Of a DNA stretch of 64,000 nucleotides, positions 22,076-46,158 are shown in pieces. A model generated the notes under the pieces. It made no database searches, was not told the origin of the DNA, and worked only from the letters and a program-made list of their open reading frames with translations. The position numbers were made by a program, and so were the translations under genes. The DNA is taken from positions 124,001 through 188,000 of the forward strand of contig CALUWC010000001.1 in the NCBI GenBank assembly GCA_944324395.1, read 5' to 3'. Source of the stretch: Candidatus Gastranaerophilales bacterium (GTDB lineage: Bacteria > Cyanobacteriota > Vampirovibrionia > Gastranaerophilales > Gastranaerophilaceae). Position 1 is the stretch's first letter. Every line of letters begins with the position of its first letter.

Positions 22076-22597
22076 ATGGCAACAAAAGCATTTAAAGAAC
22101 AAAAAATAGATGCTATAAAAGCAAAAATCGAAAAGGCCCAATCAGTTGTTATTACAGAGTATCAAGGTCTTACTGTTGAAGAAATTACAAAGCTTAGACG
22201 TGAAACTCAAAAATTAGGCGGCGATTATATGGTTACAAAAAATACTTTGGCTAAAATCGCTGTAAAAGGTACTGAATATGAACCTTTAACTGAAAAATTA
22301 TCAGGTCCTATCGCATTGGCTTTTGGTTTTGAAGATCCTGTTTCTCCTGCTAAAGCTGTTGCAAAATTTATCAAAGAAACAAAGAAAGCAACTATTGTTG
22401 GTGCTGTTTTAGATGGTAAATTACTAACAGAAGCAGAAACAAAAGCATTGGCAGAGCTTCCGTCAAAAGAAGAACTTTATGCAAAATTGCTCGGATCTAT
22501 CAATTCACCGGCATCTGGTATCGCAAACTCTATCAACGCAGTTCTTTCTCAACTTACAAGAGCTATGGCTGCAGTTCGCGATCAAAAAGCTGCGTAA
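22076..22597 (+). CDS. rplJ: 50S ribosomal protein L10
   Basis: L10 anchors the L7/L12 stalk to the ribosome. The start KEQKIDAIKAKIEKAQSVVI, the motif TEYQGLTVEEITKLR and the KNTLAKIAVKGT segment are standard. The Ala-rich C-terminal helix that binds L12 dimers closes it. 173 aa. An AAAGGAG site lies seven bases ahead. rplK and rplA are not upstream here. Confidence 0.98.
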   Translation: MATKAFKEQKIDAIKAKIEKAQSVVITEYQGLTVEEITKLRRETQKLGGDYMVTKNTLAKIAVKGTEYEPLTEKLSGPIALAFGFEDPVSPAKAVAKFIKETKKATIVGAVLDGKLLTEAETKALAELPSKEELYAKLLGSINSPASGIANSINAVLSQLTRAMAAVRDQKAA

Positions 22598-22669: not shown

Positions 22670-23047
22670 ATGAGTGTAGAATCAATTTTAGAATCAATTG
22701 AAAAATTAACATTATTAGAAGCAGCTGAATTAGTAAAAGCTATGGAAGAAAAATTCGGTGTATCTGCTGCAGCTCCTGTAGCAGTAGCAGCAGCTCCTGC
22801 AGCTGGTGCAGCAGCTCCTGCTGAAGATGCTGACGCTGAAGTTTCTGTTGTATTAGCTTCAGTTCCGGCTGATAAGAAAATCGCTGTATTAAAAGAAGTT
22901 AGAACTTTAACAGGTTTAGGCTTGAAAGAAGCTAAAGACTTAGTTGAAGCAGCTCCTAAAGCAGTTAAAGAAAACATCAAAAAAGATGAAGCTGAAGCTA
23001 TCAAGAAAACTCTTGAAGCAGCTGGTGCAGTTGTTGAAATCAAATAG
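22670..23047 (+). CDS. rplL: 50S ribosomal protein L7/L12
   Basis: The stalk protein that recruits translation factors. Residues 1-35 form the dimerisation domain, then comes an Ala/Pro hinge ([21 protein letters not shown]), and the C-terminal domain carries [20 protein letters not shown] and [10 protein letters not shown]. 125 aa. It is 72 bases after rplJ with an AAGGAG site and is followed by a terminator. Confidence 0.98.
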
Positions 23048-23068: not shown

Positions 23069-23103
23069 AAAAAGGGTAGATACGTTCTGTGTCTGCCCTT
23101 TTA
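23069..23103 (+). terminator. Terminator after rplL
   Basis: A-rich left arm, GGGTAGATAC paired with GTGTCTGCCC including two G-T pairs, and a TTTT run. It separates rplL from the repeat element and the L12-like gene downstream. Confidence 0.8.
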
Positions 23104-23108
23104 GTTGA

Positions 23109-23250
23109 ACTTATATAGCAAATTCCACTAAAATTTTTCAAAGCAGCGTCATACTGAGCGTTAGCGAAGTATCTCAATAAAAAGATTCTTCGGACTTTAG
23201 CCCTCAGAATGACGGGCTTTTATAGTATTAGCGGAATTTGCTATATAAGT
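23109..23250. repeat. MITE-like palindromic repeat, copy 1
   Basis: A 142-base element with near-perfect 22-base inverted ends, ACTTATATAGCAAATTCC and its complement, differing at one base. Inside, GCGTCATACTGAGC and CAGAATGACG form a second dyad around AAGATTCTTCGGAC. A second copy with the same interior lies at 28290-28431. No reading frame is present, so it is a non-coding mobile-type or REP-like element. Confidence 0.85.
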
Positions 23251-23340
23251 CCCCTTTTTGTAAGTTTGATTTTTCCTGCTAAATATGTTATTATGGTTTC
23301 GTGATTTTGTTCAAATACAAAAGTTAAAGGAGCTTTATAT

Positions 23341-23733
23341 ATGGATATGCCTTATGTTTATGCGGCACTTGCAATAATGTTGATAATTTTTGCAAGAGAA
23401 ATTTTAAGACGACGCTATGGATTTGATATGGATAATGTCAATATGGAAAAATTGAAGGCATTATTCAAAGGACAAAAGGTTGTATTAAAAAAAGATGAGG
23501 ATTTTGTTATAAAACGTACATCCGGGGATAAATCTTTGGTGTTGTCGGATGCTGGAGTAAACAAGGCTACGGTTATGGCAACTTTAAGGCAAATTACCGG
23601 CATAGATTATAATTCGGCAAAGAAAATAGTTGAATCTGCTCCGTATACATTTATGACTAATGTTTCAGATAAAGAGGCTGATTTAACTAAAAAGGCTTTA
23701 GAATTTGTCGGAGCTAAAGTTGAAATAAAATAG
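23341..23733 (+). CDS. Membrane-anchored L7/L12 C-terminal-domain protein
   Basis: The 130-residue protein starts with one membrane span (about residues 4-21, YVYAALAIMLIIFAREIL), then RRR, a linker, and a C-terminal domain aligning with the end of L7/L12. Both have ITG/LTG, AKxxVExAP and a final GAxVEIK. By eye about 24 of the last 55 positions are identical, without a gap, to the rplL product two genes upstream. The stalk dimerisation domain and hinge are absent. AAAGGAG precedes the ATG, and a terminator follows. It may tether translation factors or ribosomes to the membrane; this is inference. Confidence 0.85.
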   Translation: MDMPYVYAALAIMLIIFAREILRRRYGFDMDNVNMEKLKALFKGQKVVLKKDEDFVIKRTSGDKSLVLSDAGVNKATVMATLRQITGIDYNSAKKIVESAPYTFMTNVSDKEADLTKKALEFVGAKVEIK

Positions 23734-23748
23734 ATTTATTCTTATAAT

Positions 23749-23791
23749 AAAAAATACCGAACTTTAAAATTTAAAAAGTTCGGTATTTTTT
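23749..23791. terminator. Bidirectional terminator
   Basis: AAATACCGAACTTT pairs with AAAGTTCGGTATTT across a short AT loop, with A and T runs outside. It closes both the L12-like gene (plus) and the gene at 23805-24485 (minus). Confidence 0.9.
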
Positions 23792-23804
23792 GAGGTTTTA
23801 AATC

Positions 23805-24485
23805 TTATATATTTAGGATAAAACCGCCTTTATCAGCATTTTTAAGGGCTTCTCCGTCAATTTTTGCTCTTAAATTTTTGATGTATTTGTAGACATAATC
23901 TCTAGGAAGCTCTAGGAGGTTTGCCAAATCTTTAGCATAAACAATTTTATTTTTGTGAGCGCTAAAGTAGTCAAATACTTTTTGTTCTCTGTCTGTAAGG
24001 GCTTTTTTAAATACCACTCTTACTTCATCTCTGAGGTTATCGCCTGTAGAAGTATTTTCAATAGCTTTTGCAACGGCTGCAGTTTTTGTAGATTTTTTTG
24101 CTATTGATTTAGTTTTAGCAGTATTAGTTTTCTTAGATGAAACTTTTTCAGCAGCTTTTTTCGGTTCAGGATGTTTAACTTCTTGTTTTGAAGGTTTTTC
24201 CTCATCAAGTTTTAGATTTTTTGCAGAGAATGGAGAAATATAGAGTTCTTTTTCTTTTTCGTAAGCTCTGTCTGCAATAGAACTCAATCTTTCAACTTTA
24301 CCTCCGTTCCATTCAGTTTCTTCTGAAATAACCGGTTTTCCATGGAGAACGATATCAATCAAATCGTTAGTTTCTTTTTTTTCTTCAACTTTTTTCCCTA
24401 ATCTAGCAGCAAACTCCTCGAGTGTAATTTTTTCTAAAGAACTTCTCCATTGTTTAATCTCTTCCTTGCTCAGATATTCAGACAT
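23805..24485 (-). CDS. Protein with C-terminal winged-helix-like domain
   Basis: Not recognised as a named family (226 aa). The N-terminal 80 residues are acidic/helical. The middle (about 95-150) is a Lys/Ala/Thr/Ser-rich disordered linker resembling a histone H1 tail. The last 65 residues look like a winged helix: LTDREQKVFDYFSAHKNKIV, then AKDLANLLELPRDYVYKYIKNLRAKI and GGFILNI. That is the recognition-helix-plus-wing pattern of response-regulator output domains, without a receiver. A DNA-binding role is plausible. AAGGAG site present. Confidence 0.7.
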   Translation of the reverse strand: MSEYLSKEEIKQWRSSLEKITLEEFAARLGKKVEEKKETNDLIDIVLHGKPVISEETEWNGGKVERLSSIADRAYEKEKELYISPFSAKNLKLDEEKPSKQEVKHPEPKKAAEKVSSKKTNTAKTKSIAKKSTKTAAVAKAIENTSTGDNLRDEVRVVFKKALTDREQKVFDYFSAHKNKIVYAKDLANLLELPRDYVYKYIKNLRAKIDGEALKNADKGGFILNI

Positions 24486-26903: not shown

Positions 26904-27686
26904 CTATTTAGCAGATGTTAATACGTATTTAGCAGCATCTGAAGCTGGTTCAACTGTTGCATCGTGGAATACAATCGGGAATACATCTGTCATGTTTTGA
27001 GCGTTGTTTTTAACGATACATGGTTTTTCAACATCAGTAGAAGCAGTAGCACCAGCACCTGAACCTGCAGCATTTGGAGTACAAGTAACAGCTTTGTTAG
27101 GTAATGTAGCACCGTTTACATCGATGAAACCACGGCATAATGGATGGTTATCAATCCAATCACCATTCATTTGTTGACCAATAGGTAATTCGCAAGCAAC
27201 AGCTCCAGCGTTAAATGCAACGATAGAACCATCAGCTAATGTATAAGCTAGGTAATCAGCATATGTTGCATCGATGGCGCCTTGAGCTTGGTTTTGGATT
27301 GCATAATCTATTGCTGAAGTTGTACCATCAGCATTTGTAGATTGTCTTTTAATATTAGTAACCTTACCTTGGTAAGTTTGACCAGTTAATGTACCGTTTA
27401 AGATAGCACAGAATGACATTGTTGTATCTGGGTGCTCAAGAGTAACTACACCTTGAGTTGTACCTTGGGCACATGCTACAGAAGTACCTGCATAGTCAAA
27501 GTCGTACTGAGCTTGAGCCATCAAACCTGCCTGGTTCAATGTTGAAATTGTTTTCTTAAATTGAGAACGGAATTTTGCACCGTTAGTGTTTGCAATCAAT
27601 GTAGGAATAGTCATTGCAGCTACGACACCAATGATACCTAATGTGATCAATACTTCTGCCAAAGTAAAACCGAATCTTTTTGTCAT
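26904..27686 (-). CDS. Prepilin-like protein 1 (probable major pilin)
   Basis: Type IV pilin/pseudopilin with a short basic leader and cleavage site (KRFG before FTLAEVLITLG), then the hydrophobic helix to about residue 35. The 225-residue globular part has paired cysteines. The C-terminal segment NMTDVFPIVFHDATVEPAS is shared with the second copy at 31652-32407. Of the three prepilin genes, this one has the best promoter, an AAAGGTG ribosome site, its own terminator and regular codon use, which suggests high expression. Assembly genes (pilB, pilC, pilD) are not in the window. It could be a pilus or a secretion pseudopilus subunit. Confidence 0.85.
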   Translation of the reverse strand: MTKRFGFTLAEVLITLGIIGVVAAMTIPTLIANTNGAKFRSQFKKTISTLNQAGLMAQAQYDFDYAGTSVACAQGTTQGVVTLEHPDTTMSFCAILNGTLTGQTYQGKVTNIKRQSTNADGTTSAIDYAIQNQAQGAIDATYADYLAYTLADGSIVAFNAGAVACELPIGQQMNGDWIDNHPLCRGFIDVNGATLPNKAVTCTPNAAGSGAGATASTDVEKPCIVKNNAQNMTDVFPIVFHDATVEPASDAAKYVLTSAK

Positions 27687-28289: not shown

Positions 28290-28431
28290 ACTTATGTGAC
28301 AAATTTCACCAAAAATTTTCAAAACAGCGTCATACTGAGCATTAGCGAAGTATCTCAATAATAAGATTCTTCGGACTAAAATCTTCAGAATGACGGGCTT
28401 TTATAGTATCAATGGAATTTGCTGTATAAAT
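28290..28431. repeat. MITE-like palindromic repeat, copy 2
   Basis: Same length and interior as the element at 23109-23250 (GCGTCATACTGAGCATTAGC, AGATTCTTCGGAC, CAGAATGACGGGC), with more worn ends: ACTTATGTGACAAATTTCACC against GGAATTTGCTGTATAAAT. This copy looks older or less constrained than copy 1. Confidence 0.8.
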
Positions 28432-28514
28432 CTTCAATCACGTAATGATTGAGGGTTGATTGGTTTCTATAATTTAGCCCGTTTACAAGGAAATGTTTTT
28501 CCTAACAATTATAA

Positions 28515-31651: not shown

Positions 31652-32407
31652 TTATAGTTTACTTGTATCAAGAACGTAAGCAGCTGCCGCTGAAGCCGGT
31701 TCTACAGTTGTATCGTGGAATACTATTGGAAAAACATCTGTCATATGTCCTGCATTGTTTTTTACAACGCAGGGATCGTCTCCGCCAATTCTATTTGTAC
31801 CTTCGGAGCAGTTGACTTCTCTGTTAGGTAAAGATACTCCGTTAACATCTACGAATCCGACACAATTGGATAAATCAAGTCCGCCCCCGCCGCCTTCAAT
31901 AAAGTCTTGAGTAATTCGAGAACCCAATGGAAGCTCACAGTGTACTGCATCAGGATGGAACGCAACAATCATCCCGTCTGCAAGTGTATAAGTAAGAAAT
32001 GATTCATAATCATCAGGAATTGTTTCTTTTGTTTCCAGTTTATAAGGTACAATTTGCTGATCACTGGTATATCTTTTTAAATTTGTAAGCTGACCGTAGT
32101 AAGCAACGGAAGATAAGGTTCCATTTAATATTGCACAAAAAGACATAACTGTATCAGGATGTTCTGTTGCCGCAGTTTCTCTGTTTGATGAGCAAGTTGT
32201 ACTTGTTCCGGCAAAGTTAAAATCATATTGTGATTGCGCCATCAGACCGGCTTGATTCAGTGTTGATACGGCTTTTTTAAATTTGCTGCGGTATTGGGCC
32301 CCGCTCACATTCGAAAAGATAACCGGTATTGTCATAGCCGCAACAGTACCAATAACTCCCAGTGTTATTAAAACTTCTGCTAAAGTAAAACCGTAATATT
32401 TTTTCAT
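31652..32407 (-). CDS. Prepilin-like protein 2
   Basis: Paralogue of the prepilin at 26904-27686, with a KKYYG leader before FTLAEVLITLG. The two align along their whole length: FKK-x-x-STLNQAGLMAQ, EHPDTxMSFCAILNGTL, LADGxIVAF and NMTDVFPIVFHD versus HMTDVFPIVFHD. 251 aa. A glycine run (EGGGGGLDLSNC) differs from copy 1. It is only seven bases from the end of the response-regulator gene, convergent. Own TTGACA promoter. Likely an alternative or minor subunit. Confidence 0.85.
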   Translation of the reverse strand: MKKYYGFTLAEVLITLGVIGTVAAMTIPVIFSNVSGAQYRSKFKKAVSTLNQAGLMAQSQYDFNFAGTSTTCSSNRETAATEHPDTVMSFCAILNGTLSSVAYYGQLTNLKRYTSDQQIVPYKLETKETIPDDYESFLTYTLADGMIVAFHPDAVHCELPLGSRITQDFIEGGGGGLDLSNCVGFVDVNGVSLPNREVNCSEGTNRIGGDDPCVVKNNAGHMTDVFPIVFHDTTVEPASAAAAYVLDTSKL

Positions 32408-35334: not shown

Positions 35335-37020
35335 AAAGAGATTTATATAATAGCCCCGGTTAAAAAGCCGGAGGATATTTTAAAGTTTTCTGCAAATACA
35401 AGATGTAAAGATTATTATGTTTATTATAACAAATTCTTAAACGGTAATTTTGATTACATTTCCGAATTTGTTGCTAATGCACGTACTGCAGATTGCAGAA
35501 TTTTTGTAAATTTTAAGCATGATATTGTCGAAGAAGAACTGCCTGAAATTAAAAAATTCCTTAAATATCTCAAAACTTCAGGTATAGATGGAATTTTTAT
35601 AAATAGTTTTGCGGTACTTGAAGCTATTAAGGTTTTTAAATTTCCTTTTCAGGTTATTGCAGATTCTTATTTTGATATTCATAATCTTGCGGGAATTGAC
35701 TTTATCAATAGCTTTCACAAAGTTACGGGATTGATAATTACTGAGGAAATTTATTTAAAAAATATTGTTAAAATAAAAAAATATACAAAACTTCCACTGG
35801 CTATAGATTCGGATAATCTTCCATGGTGTGCTGAAGATATTATCAAATTAAAAGCTATAGACAGTGTTATTGTGAAAGGTAAATTTGCATCTTCAGATGA
35901 TATATTGGAAGGAATTGAACTTATAGAAAATATTCTTGACAAGCCGAAACTTTTTAAAAATCAAAAACTTCCGTTTAAACATGTTAGAAAATGCATATAT
36001 AAAACAAATCATTTTTCCGGTGATATGGTTAGTGCAGAGGGTAAAGATTTTAAATTCAGCAGAAATATAAAATCTTTTGATTGGGAAGATGTTAATGAGG
36101 GTAAATCTTATGATAGTGATTTCACCCCGCTTATTGATAAAAATGCCGTTTTATCTTCAAAAGATAAATATAGAATAAATCTCAGATTGACATCATTATT
36201 GCAGATTCAGGAATTGAAAAAGTATATAGAGGATTTGGGGTTTAATCCTGTATATTCAATTGAATATGGAGAAATTGTTTCAACCAGCGACCTTGCTACA
36301 AGAAGTTTTTCAGAGGTTATAACGTTTGTTAAGGGTTTTTGTGCTAAATACGGCATAAAATTTCAGCTCTCAACTCCGGAAATATTGATAGAACGAGATT
36401 TTGACAGAGTTTATGAATATGAAAAGCAGCTGCTGCTTGAATATCCATGTCCTGATTCTTTGGTAATAAATAATATCGGTTATTTTTGGTCTTTTATCAA
36501 TGATTCGGAAATAAATCATATTCCGTTTGAAATCGGTCAGGGTATAAATCTTCTTAACAGTATGTCTATAAAGTGCTTGAATAATCTGGCTCCTATTGAT
36601 ACAATCGACTTTTCTCCATTCAAGGATTTACATTCTTTAGAAAAAATATTGAAAAAATTTAAAAATGAAATTCCAAACAAAAAATATACAATCGCAGGTA
36701 ATGTAAGGGTTTCAAGTATGGGATTGTGTCCGTTAAATAATGACAGTGCTATTGTTTCCCGTCTGTCCTGCAAGGCTCCTTGTTATAAAGGTCAGTATGC
36801 ACTTAAAGATCCTTCTCTTAAAAAACTTTTTCCGTTTGTTTGTGATGGCTTTTGCAGAATGCATATGTTTGAAGATAAAATTATTGATGATTTTTCTGTT
36901 ATTGATAACCTTTTGACTCTTGGAATTAATGAATTTGTTTTTGATTACAGTTCTTTGAATTTCAAGTATATTTCGATTTTACTCGATAAGTTTTTTACAT
37001 ATATTTCTAATGTAAAATAA
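35332..37020 (+). CDS. U32 peptidase-like protein
   Basis: A 562-residue protein whose last 110 residues carry a U32-type cysteine signature: SSMGLCPLN, CKAPCYKGQYAL and VCDGFCRMHM, four or more cysteines that in U32 proteins are iron-sulfur ligands. The N-terminal region reads as a TIM-barrel-like fold (GIDGIFINSFAVLEAIK, PFQVIADSYFDIHNL). U32 members act as collagenase-like proteases or in tRNA and quinone hydroxylation, so peptidase activity is not assured. Followed 75 bases later by the DUF2229 gene. Leaderless start. Confidence 0.7.
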   Translation: MKEIYIIAPVKKPEDILKFSANTRCKDYYVYYNKFLNGNFDYISEFVANARTADCRIFVNFKHDIVEEELPEIKKFLKYLKTSGIDGIFINSFAVLEAIKVFKFPFQVIADSYFDIHNLAGIDFINSFHKVTGLIITEEIYLKNIVKIKKYTKLPLAIDSDNLPWCAEDIIKLKAIDSVIVKGKFASSDDILEGIELIENILDKPKLFKNQKLPFKHVRKCIYKTNHFSGDMVSAEGKDFKFSRNIKSFDWEDVNEGKSYDSDFTPLIDKNAVLSSKDKYRINLRLTSLLQIQELKKYIEDLGFNPVYSIEYGEIVSTSDLATRSFSEVITFVKGFCAKYGIKFQLSTPEILIERDFDRVYEYEKQLLLEYPCPDSLVINNIGYFWSFINDSEINHIPFEIGQGINLLNSMSIKCLNNLAPIDTIDFSPFKDLHSLEKILKKFKNEIPNKKYTIAGNVRVSSMGLCPLNNDSAIVSRLSCKAPCYKGQYALKDPSLKKLFPFVCDGFCRMHMFEDKIIDDFSVIDNLLTLGINEFVFDYSSLNFKYISILLDKFFTYISNVK

Positions 37021-44682: not shown

Positions 44683-46158
44683 CTATACAGCTGCTTTAAT
44701 TGCTTTGTTTGCTCTGTATAAGCTTGTATCTTTGCCTAAAATGTCGAGAATCCCGACCATATCGGCTCCGCAGGTTCTGCCGGTAACGGCAGCTCTGATT
44801 GCCCACATTGTAACTTTAGGTTTAATCCCGCCTTTTTCTTTCCATTCAGCTCTGAAATCAGCCAGTTTTTCGTGAAGATTTTCTTCTGTCCAATCCCAAT
44901 CTTTAGCTTTTTCTACGAAATCTTTCAATACATTTTGGGCCGTTTCTGTATCTAATGTTCCGGTTTGAGTTTCCGGTTCAATTTCAACATCTTTGCCGAA
45001 GAAATACGGAACTGCATCTGTAATATCAGATAACAAAGTTAAAGGTTCTCTCGTAATTTCAACCATTTTTGTGTACTGAGCATCTGTTAATTCATTAAGA
45101 TTATATTTTGTTAAATAAGGTTTTAACATTTCTTTTAATTTTTCAATCGGCAGCATTTTGATATAATGACCGTTCATCCATTTTAATTTGTCATATTCAA
45201 ATATTGAATTTGAAGATGAAATTTCATGAATTCTGAAATCTTTTGCAATTTCATCAACAGATTTGATTTCTTCTCCGTCAGAAGGTGACCAGCCTAATAG
45301 GGCAACAAAGTTAATTAAAGCTTCTGTCAGATAACCTTCTTTAACAAAGTCTGATACCGCAGTTGCTCCATGTCTTTTTGATAGTTTGCTTCTATCAGGG
45401 GCTAAAATCATTCCAAGGTGTCCAAATTGAGGAACTTCAAATCCTAAAGCTTCAAATATCAAAATTTGTTTATATGTATTTGAAATATGGTCTTCACCTC
45501 TTATTACGTGTGAGATTTTCATTAAAGCATCGTCAATTACGACAGCAAAATTATAAGTCGGGGTGCCGTTTGATTTTTGGATTACAAAATCTCCTAAAAG
45601 ATTTGTATCCATATGTAGTTCACCTTTTACCATATCATTAAATTTTAAGATTGAAGAATCGTGAAAAGCTTTTTGAGCTTTAGCAATATTAAATCTGATT
45701 GCAGGTTTTCTTCCTTCTGCTCTTAATTTTGCTTTTTCTTCTTCTGTTAAATTTTCGCATTTTTTAGAATATACATAAGGCTTTTTGGCTTTTGTAGCTT
45801 CTTCTTTTTCCTGTTCAAGTTCTTCTGGGGTGCAGAAGCATTCGTAAGCAAAACCTGAATCTAAAAGTTTTTGAACATATTTAGGATAAATATCAAATCT
45901 TTCAGACTGTGTATAAGGTCCGTAAGGTCCGCCAACATCTGGTCCTTCGTCCCAGTTTAGACCTAACGCTTTTAAACTGTCAAAAATATTGTCGATATAT
46001 TCTTGAGAAGTTCTTTCAGCATCTGTATCTTCTATTCTTAAAATAAATTTTCCATTATTTTTTTTTGCAAATAAATAGTTAAATAATGCAGTTCTAGCTG
46101 TCCCGATGTGTAAGTTTCCGCTTGGGGACGGTGCTATTCTAACTCTAACTTCTGACAT
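44683..46158 (-). CDS. gltX: Glutamyl-tRNA synthetase
   Basis: Charges tRNA-Glu. Class I motifs: HIGH-type SPSGNLHIGTARTALFNYLFA and KMSKS-type RSKLSKRHGA. LRIEDTDAERTS, GPYGPYTQSERFDIY and HVIRGEDHISNT are also present. I start at MSEVRVRIAPSPSG (46158) with a GAAGG site; the frame open to 46221 adds 21 unlikely residues. 491 aa. Whether it also charges tRNA-Gln (non-discriminating form) cannot be told here. Confidence 0.97.
   Translation of the reverse strand: MSEVRVRIAPSPSGNLHIGTARTALFNYLFAKKNNGKFILRIEDTDAERTSQEYIDNIFDSLKALGLNWDEGPDVGGPYGPYTQSERFDIYPKYVQKLLDSGFAYECFCTPEELEQEKEEATKAKKPYVYSKKCENLTEEEKAKLRAEGRKPAIRFNIAKAQKAFHDSSILKFNDMVKGELHMDTNLLGDFVIQKSNGTPTYNFAVVIDDALMKISHVIRGEDHISNTYKQILIFEALGFEVPQFGHLGMILAPDRSKLSKRHGATAVSDFVKEGYLTEALINFVALLGWSPSDGEEIKSVDEIAKDFRIHEISSSNSIFEYDKLKWMNGHYIKMLPIEKLKEMLKPYLTKYNLNELTDAQYTKMVEITREPLTLLSDITDAVPYFFGKDVEIEPETQTGTLDTETAQNVLKDFVEKAKDWDWTEENLHEKLADFRAEWKEKGGIKPKVTMWAIRAAVTGRTCGADMVGILDILGKDTSLYRANKAIKAAV

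Follow-up and report, generated by a model that had tools for sequence, protein, structure and literature searches.

We identified a gene 3' of rplL that encodes a complete C-terminal domain (CTD) of the ribosomal stalk protein bL12 on a predicted N-terminal membrane anchor. It lies in the 64,000-nucleotide stretch of Candidatus Gastranaerophilales DNA analysed here, which we call the window. The anchored gene is a lineage-specific duplicate of rplL that is now universal in one genus of non-photosynthetic cyanobacteria from the gut. Its single origin and its architecture are shown by the comparisons below; how the swap of domains came about is inferred. The surface with which L12 contacts translation factors has been changed, and the change is fixed. 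With moderate confidence we therefore regard the product as a docking protein of the membrane whose ligand has been re-specified, and we favour this over recruitment of the canonical translation factors.

Architecture and fold of the anchored protein

The source genome, a 1.89-Mb assembly, has two L12 domains, one in rplL and one in the anchored gene. The features of the locus, in window coordinates, are as follows:

22076..22597, plus strand: rplJ (uL10); PF00466, E=2.5e-28
22670..23047, plus strand: rplL (bL12), bona fide stalk protein, presumably the parent gene; PF00542, E=3.8e-27, and PF16320, E=2.3e-21
22862..22879, plus strand: VPADKK loop of rplL, genus-specific, just before the factor-binding helix; PADKK in 23/23
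23070..23102, plus strand: terminator-like hairpin 3' of rplL; 14 bp, -20.7 kcal/mol, z -6.6
23109..23250, no strand assigned: palindromic MITE-like mobile repeat, 142 bp; 23-nt inverted ends, 96%
23266..23294, plus strand: promoter-like site TTGATT-17-TATTAT, with TG ahead of the second hexamer; 9/12 match
23326..23332, plus strand: ribosome-binding site AAAGGAG, read off the sequence, eight bases before the start
23341..23733, plus strand: anchored L12-CTD protein P0001; ATG to TAG, 130 aa
23350..23400, plus strand: predicted N-terminal membrane span, about residues 4-20; hydropathy in all orthologues, model helix 3-26
23395..23433, plus strand: basic juxtamembrane stretch and conserved FDMD motif, residues 19-31; 66% mean column identity
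23434..23526, plus strand: variable linker, residues 32-62; 35% mean identity, model confidence low at 43-53
23527..23730, plus strand: L12 CTD, residues 63-130; altered docking face on helices 75-86 and 90-98
23748..23792, plus strand: terminator-like hairpin 3' of the anchored gene; 18 bp, -19.1 kcal/mol, z -4.6

Residues 66-130 of P0001 match the Pfam family Ribosomal_L12 (PF00542) with E=8.1e-15 and 55.3 bits, against a gathering cut-off of 25.9; the dimerisation domain PF16320 gave no match even when E values up to 1 were allowed. The same pattern runs through the anchored family: PF00542 matches 30/30 members, and PF16320 was found in none of the 30 at E up to 0.01. The NCBI L12 model TIGR00855 gives the rplL of the window 150.8 bits, above its cut-off of 84.4, and P0001 49.2 bits; since the latter score lies under the cut-off, P0001 counts as a relative rather than as an L12. 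In a BLASTP comparison with the window's own L12, 27/67 positions are identical (40%) with one 1-residue gap. In a search of all PDB chains the best matches were structures of the E. coli L12 CTD, to which P0001 aligns without gaps (1ctf, 44 bits, E=2.7e-10). The similarity to the L12 CTD is far beyond chance. The initial annotation described a gapless alignment; this is true of E. coli L12, whereas the neighbouring rplL carries one residue more.

In an AlphaFold2 model of P0001, built on 30 orthologues, a helix at 3-26 is followed by a linker of low confidence and then by a folded domain with pLDDT of about 87-90. This domain has a strand (64-70), two helices (75-86 and 90-98), a second strand (102-108), a third helix (110-122) and a last strand (126-129). 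L12 CTDs rank first for the model in structure searches (Foldseek, VIA-align), with Z 13.1 and 0.8 Å over 68 residues for 1ctf. The next fold is that of the ClpS adaptor, which belongs to the same overall fold class (Z about 8-9.4) but has about 12% identity to the domain, against 43% for L12 in the structure comparison; the model is clearly nearer L12.

In each of the 31 orthologues measured, the N-terminal span reaches a 19-residue Kyte-Doolittle maximum of 1.64 or more, although it is predicted to be short, about 17 residues. Because basic residues come after the span, as they do in every orthologue, the L12 domain is expected in the cytoplasm, and P0001 is predicted to be a single-span inner-membrane protein with a cytoplasmic C-terminus. 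Domain matches, hydropathy and fold together bear out the order of elements first read from this DNA, namely one N-terminal span, an RRR, a linker and an L12 CTD. The proposal that a membrane anchor has replaced the dimerisation domain and hinge of the stalk protein is supported as well: bL12 has both, and in the model a hydrophobic helix occupies the place of the missing PF16320. With bL12 the anchored protein has in common a complete CTD (strand-helix-helix-strand-helix-strand), the locus and the orientation.

Locus, distribution and related L12 domains

Wherever both genes could be read on one contig, the anchored gene lies 3' of rplL on the same strand. The initial annotation placed it directly after rplJ-rplL. 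It does adjoin them in the same orientation, but across a 293-nt gap in which a terminator-like hairpin is followed by the mobile repeat and then by the promoter-like site. In nearly every genus genome that was read, a strong hairpin stands between the two genes rplL and the anchored gene. Taken alone, the 9/12 promoter-like match at 23266-23294 is no better than chance. A similar TTGATTT...TATGnTATTAT is found upstream of the anchored gene at most orthologous loci, and the argument for a promoter derives from this recurrence rather than from the single match. Given the hairpin and the promoter-like site, the anchored gene is probably a transcription unit of its own, apart from the stalk operon. 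The promoter-like site precedes the hairpin in the gap of L005, L007, L044, L046, L047, L051-L053 and L057; at these loci the hairpin would sit at the 5' end of the transcript, in the manner of an attenuator. A terminator scan of the locus found none because the T-tract pairs within the hairpins, both of which are clear upon folding. No structured regulatory RNA at the locus was matched in Rfam. The 142-bp repeat is present in 19 near-full-length copies in the genome (84-100% identity) and is an insertion in the rplL gap of this genome, outside the conserved system. Another copy lies in the window at about 28290-28432.

When 318 genomes from the order, all at least 90% complete, were searched with a profile, an orthologue turned up in 35/35 genomes of the genus and in 0/283 others. 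Intact copies from the genus score at least 130 bits, a range that does not include the G156 copy, which is cut by a contig end; elsewhere only rplL scores, with at most 54 bits. The anchored-gene query matches 41/46 genus genomes. The five without a match (66-88% complete) gave no rplL with that query either, and the region is probably missing from these incomplete genomes. The named orthologue records are metagenome assemblies, several of them labelled Gastranaerophilales or Melainabacteria, including Zag_111; the GTDB genus of the carriers is probably Zag111. The initial annotation had suggested a search for the architecture in other Vampirovibrionia; the orthologues do belong to Gastranaerophilales, but to this one genus only. 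Viral origin or spread of the gene was considered and rejected, as no relative was found in the viral contigs searched.

The 30 anchored sequences are 41-88% identical to the window protein and share 20 invariant columns. Mean identity is highest in the loop with helix 4 (85%) and in helix 6 with strand 3 (87%), moderate in the span and juxtamembrane part (66%) and lowest in the linker (35%). The closest pair of orthologues has a dN/dS of 0.04, with synonymous sites saturated in most pairs. As judged by this ratio and these columns, the anchored gene is under purifying selection.

In a tree of CTDs all anchored copies fall into one clade (support 96/96), apart from rplL; the tree is based on 69 columns, and its deeper branching order is not settled. 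We propose that a single duplication of rplL took place at the root of one genus within the family, and that the duplicate would then have shed the dimerisation domain together with the hinge and acquired a membrane span at its N-terminus. Six genus genomes carry a further copy, which we call the B copy, between rplL and the anchored gene (L006:1925-2278, L050:1925-2278, L054:783-1136, L045:1880-2281, L056:1055-1471 and L189). Like the anchored gene, the B copies encode a span and a complete L12 CTD. They differ from it in that helices 4 and 5 are more L12-like, and in that they are found in these six genomes only. They have at least two separate origins in the CTD tree; therefore, the genus repeatedly couples rplL duplicates to a membrane span. 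Away from rplL, on the minus strand, L117 and L118 in two genomes of the genus (G146, G148) encode a further diverged protein with a hydrophobic N-terminus and an L12 CTD.

L12-derived segments on membrane spans are not peculiar to this genus. Proteins that consist of a span and a short L12 hairpin are common in Actinobacteria and elsewhere, and we found such proteins, with the helix-4/helix-5 hairpin, in large-genome members of the class. As in the anchored protein, a single N-terminal span is followed by an L12-derived segment that matches PF00542. In contrast to it, they contain nothing of the domain but one or two copies of the hairpin, which spans about positions 10-40 of the 67-position model, and they retain a GLGLKEAK-like motif, whereas the anchored protein has the complete domain with GIDYxxAK instead. 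Phage-encoded bL12-domain proteins also exist (PMC6375957). In these, too, the L12 CTD occurs outside the canonical stalk protein and can sit in unrelated proteins, but the contact residues are reported to be conserved, and a membrane anchor is not described in the parts of that source drawn on here (PMC6375957).

A few more proteins came to our attention. A 201-aa lipoprotein-like cytochrome c (L107; G179:C28, around 44851-45051) ends in a complete L12 CTD (PF13442, PF00542), and its L12 domain is predicted to lie outside the cytoplasm. A 275-aa prepilin-like protein with an N_methyl motif (L114; G326:C36, around 36255-36428) has an L12-CTD-like domain at its C-terminus. In a 412-aa protein, possibly a defence protein, a membrane span and an L12 helix hairpin are combined with an Mrr-type restriction endonuclease domain (L125; G132:C27, around 24299-24397). 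The window itself holds two related prepilin-like ORFs on the minus strand, about 4 kb apart (26904-27686 and 31652-32407), with the motif GFTLAEVLITLG and similar C-termini.

As far as the literature is concerned, our limited search found no complete L12 CTD that sits on an anchor, adjoins rplL, is fixed in a genus and has an altered face. Nor did it return any membrane-anchored L12 CTD, an absence that is weak since the spelling 'L7/L12' is not searchable.

The docking face and the parent L12

L12 binds IF2, EF-Tu, EF-G and RF3 via a conserved positive site on helices 4 and 5 (PMC6753160). In Salmonella L12, the substitutions K65Q/R and K70Q/R are reported to cause loss of EF-Tu binding (PMC10602876). 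We compared this face over 30 anchored sequences from 30 species, using E. coli L12 numbering. R73 (30/30), K84 (29/30) and mostly K65 (28/30) are common to bL12 and the anchored proteins. Four other residues of bL12 are replaced throughout: V66 by A (30/30), K70 by A (30/30), G74 by Q (30/30) and L80 by Y (29/30). Additionally, K81, E82 and D85 are mostly lost. Further, more diverged orthologues have A or S at K70, a position that is K in 62/62 distinct rplL CTDs counted from the class. The initial annotation gave weight to whether factor-contact residues persist across orthologues, and here the answer is divided: K65, R73 and K84 are kept, but V66, K70, G74 and L80 are not. Because the altered residues are invariant, the face appears to be in use, though not simply as in L12.

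The parent protein differs from its relatives as well. Among distinct rplL CTDs, the PADKK loop marks the genus: 23/23 have it, against 0/39 from other genera. It exceeds the AGANK-type loop of the latter by one residue and leads into helix 4; in the anchored copy the loop is of the short GxNK form. The change fits paralogues that diverge so as not to share ligands or compete for them. On the tree, the loop change and the anchored gene count as one linked event, so that the association has n=1. Horizontal gain of the genus rplL is disfavoured: over the N-terminal half the protein is the same as in other genera, and a local change is simpler as only the loop differs.

The translation factors were compared as well. 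EF-Tu has 0 disjoint genus-specific sites, and helix D of EF-Tu does not differ from that of most relatives. EF-G has three such sites (442, 681 and 685), all beyond its G domain. We therefore reject compensating changes in EF-Tu and EF-G: the factors have not been changed to fit the altered face, nor is the rplL change an answer to a change in them. A translational GTPase specific to the genus was likewise rejected as the partner, given that the PF00009 set equals that of relatives; an extra, RF3-sized match was seen only in G155. The near-complete G000, G006 and G001 have no EF-Tu-sized PF00009 match, probably owing to an assembly gap. Two SRP GTPases, a 462-aa Ffh-like and a 314-aa FtsY-like protein, are found in the genus and in relatives alike; with both present, the idea that the anchored protein replaces a lost SRP route was rejected.

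Possible functions and partners

We propose that the anchored protein resides in the inner membrane with its L12 domain in the cytoplasm, as hydropathy and the basic flank suggest, and that its gene would have a promoter of its own and be transcribed separately from the stalk operon. The L12 domain would dock one specific partner at the membrane via the helix 4/helix 5 face. This face would have been re-specified by the fixed replacement of K70, V66, G74 and L80, with R73, K84 and usually K65 kept. Since the face is re-specified, the partner is probably one ligand and not the whole set of translational GTPases; it may be a single GTPase held in an altered manner, or some other protein. Without the uL10-binding part, the protein would not be expected to join the ribosomal stalk.

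The strongest competitor, possible although we consider it doubtful, is that the domain binds EF-Tu, EF-G and IF2 much like L12 does. It would then concentrate GTPases at the inner membrane, for example for membrane-protein synthesis, or compete with the stalk. The L12 CTD fold, the retention of K65, R73 and K84 in nearly all sequences, the place of the factor-site loop and helix 4 among the most conserved parts and the known role of L12 helices 4 and 5 (PMC6753160) all agree with this, and the kept residues make a lower-affinity binding of the canonical factors possible. What weighs against it is the face itself, with K70 and V66 replaced by A in 30/30, L80 by Y, and K81, E82 and D85 mostly lost, given that K70Q and K70R are reported to abolish EF-Tu binding in Salmonella L12 (PMC10602876). 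Moreover, the genus has the same GTPase set as its relatives, an unchanged EF-Tu and an intact SRP pathway, and thus no other sign of a special translation arrangement. The initial annotation had inferred just such tethering of translation factors or competition with the stalk. The L12 fold on an anchor stands, but the factor-binding function is called into question by K70->A in 30/30, and we have not adopted that inference unchanged, mainly because the docking face is invariant yet altered.

Alternatively, the domain could be a general protein-binding module of the L12/ClpS-like kind with a role outside translation, for instance as an adaptor that serves a membrane protease or an envelope complex. 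ClpS is indeed the next fold (Z about 8-9.4), and the class has L12-type domains in a lipoprotein-like cytochrome c and a pilin-like prepilin, both predicted to lie outside the cytoplasm, as well as short L12 hairpins on membrane spans in its large-genome members. Nonetheless, we find this improbable, as sequence and fold are nearest L12 and not ClpS (43% vs 12% identity), rplL is its neighbour in the genomes with both genes read on a single contig, and known L12 contact residues are kept. Finally, that the gene is a neutral, functionless leftover of rplL tandem duplication is barely conceivable: rplL-like tandem copies do recur at the locus, with at least two origins among the B copies, but the gene is in all near-complete genus genomes despite identities as low as 41%, and its 20 invariant columns and purifying selection speak against it.

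A more far-reaching interpretation can be put forward tentatively. The protein may be a membrane receptor, derived from a stalk domain, that captures a specific translational GTPase or the translating ribosome, with stalk and receptor splitting the ligands between them. Such a split would show as a linked change of the L12 loop and the anchored docking face. As the paralogue adjoins its parent, ligand splitting could be tested with two small soluble domains. If a GTPase is still bound, the anchored protein would be a stalk-like capture device working off the ribosome, and would point to a membrane-translation route beyond the known SRP/FtsY, SecYEG and YidC. If the ligand is another protein, a core ribosomal domain would have been turned into a membrane docking protein throughout a genus, paired with a change in the parent protein.
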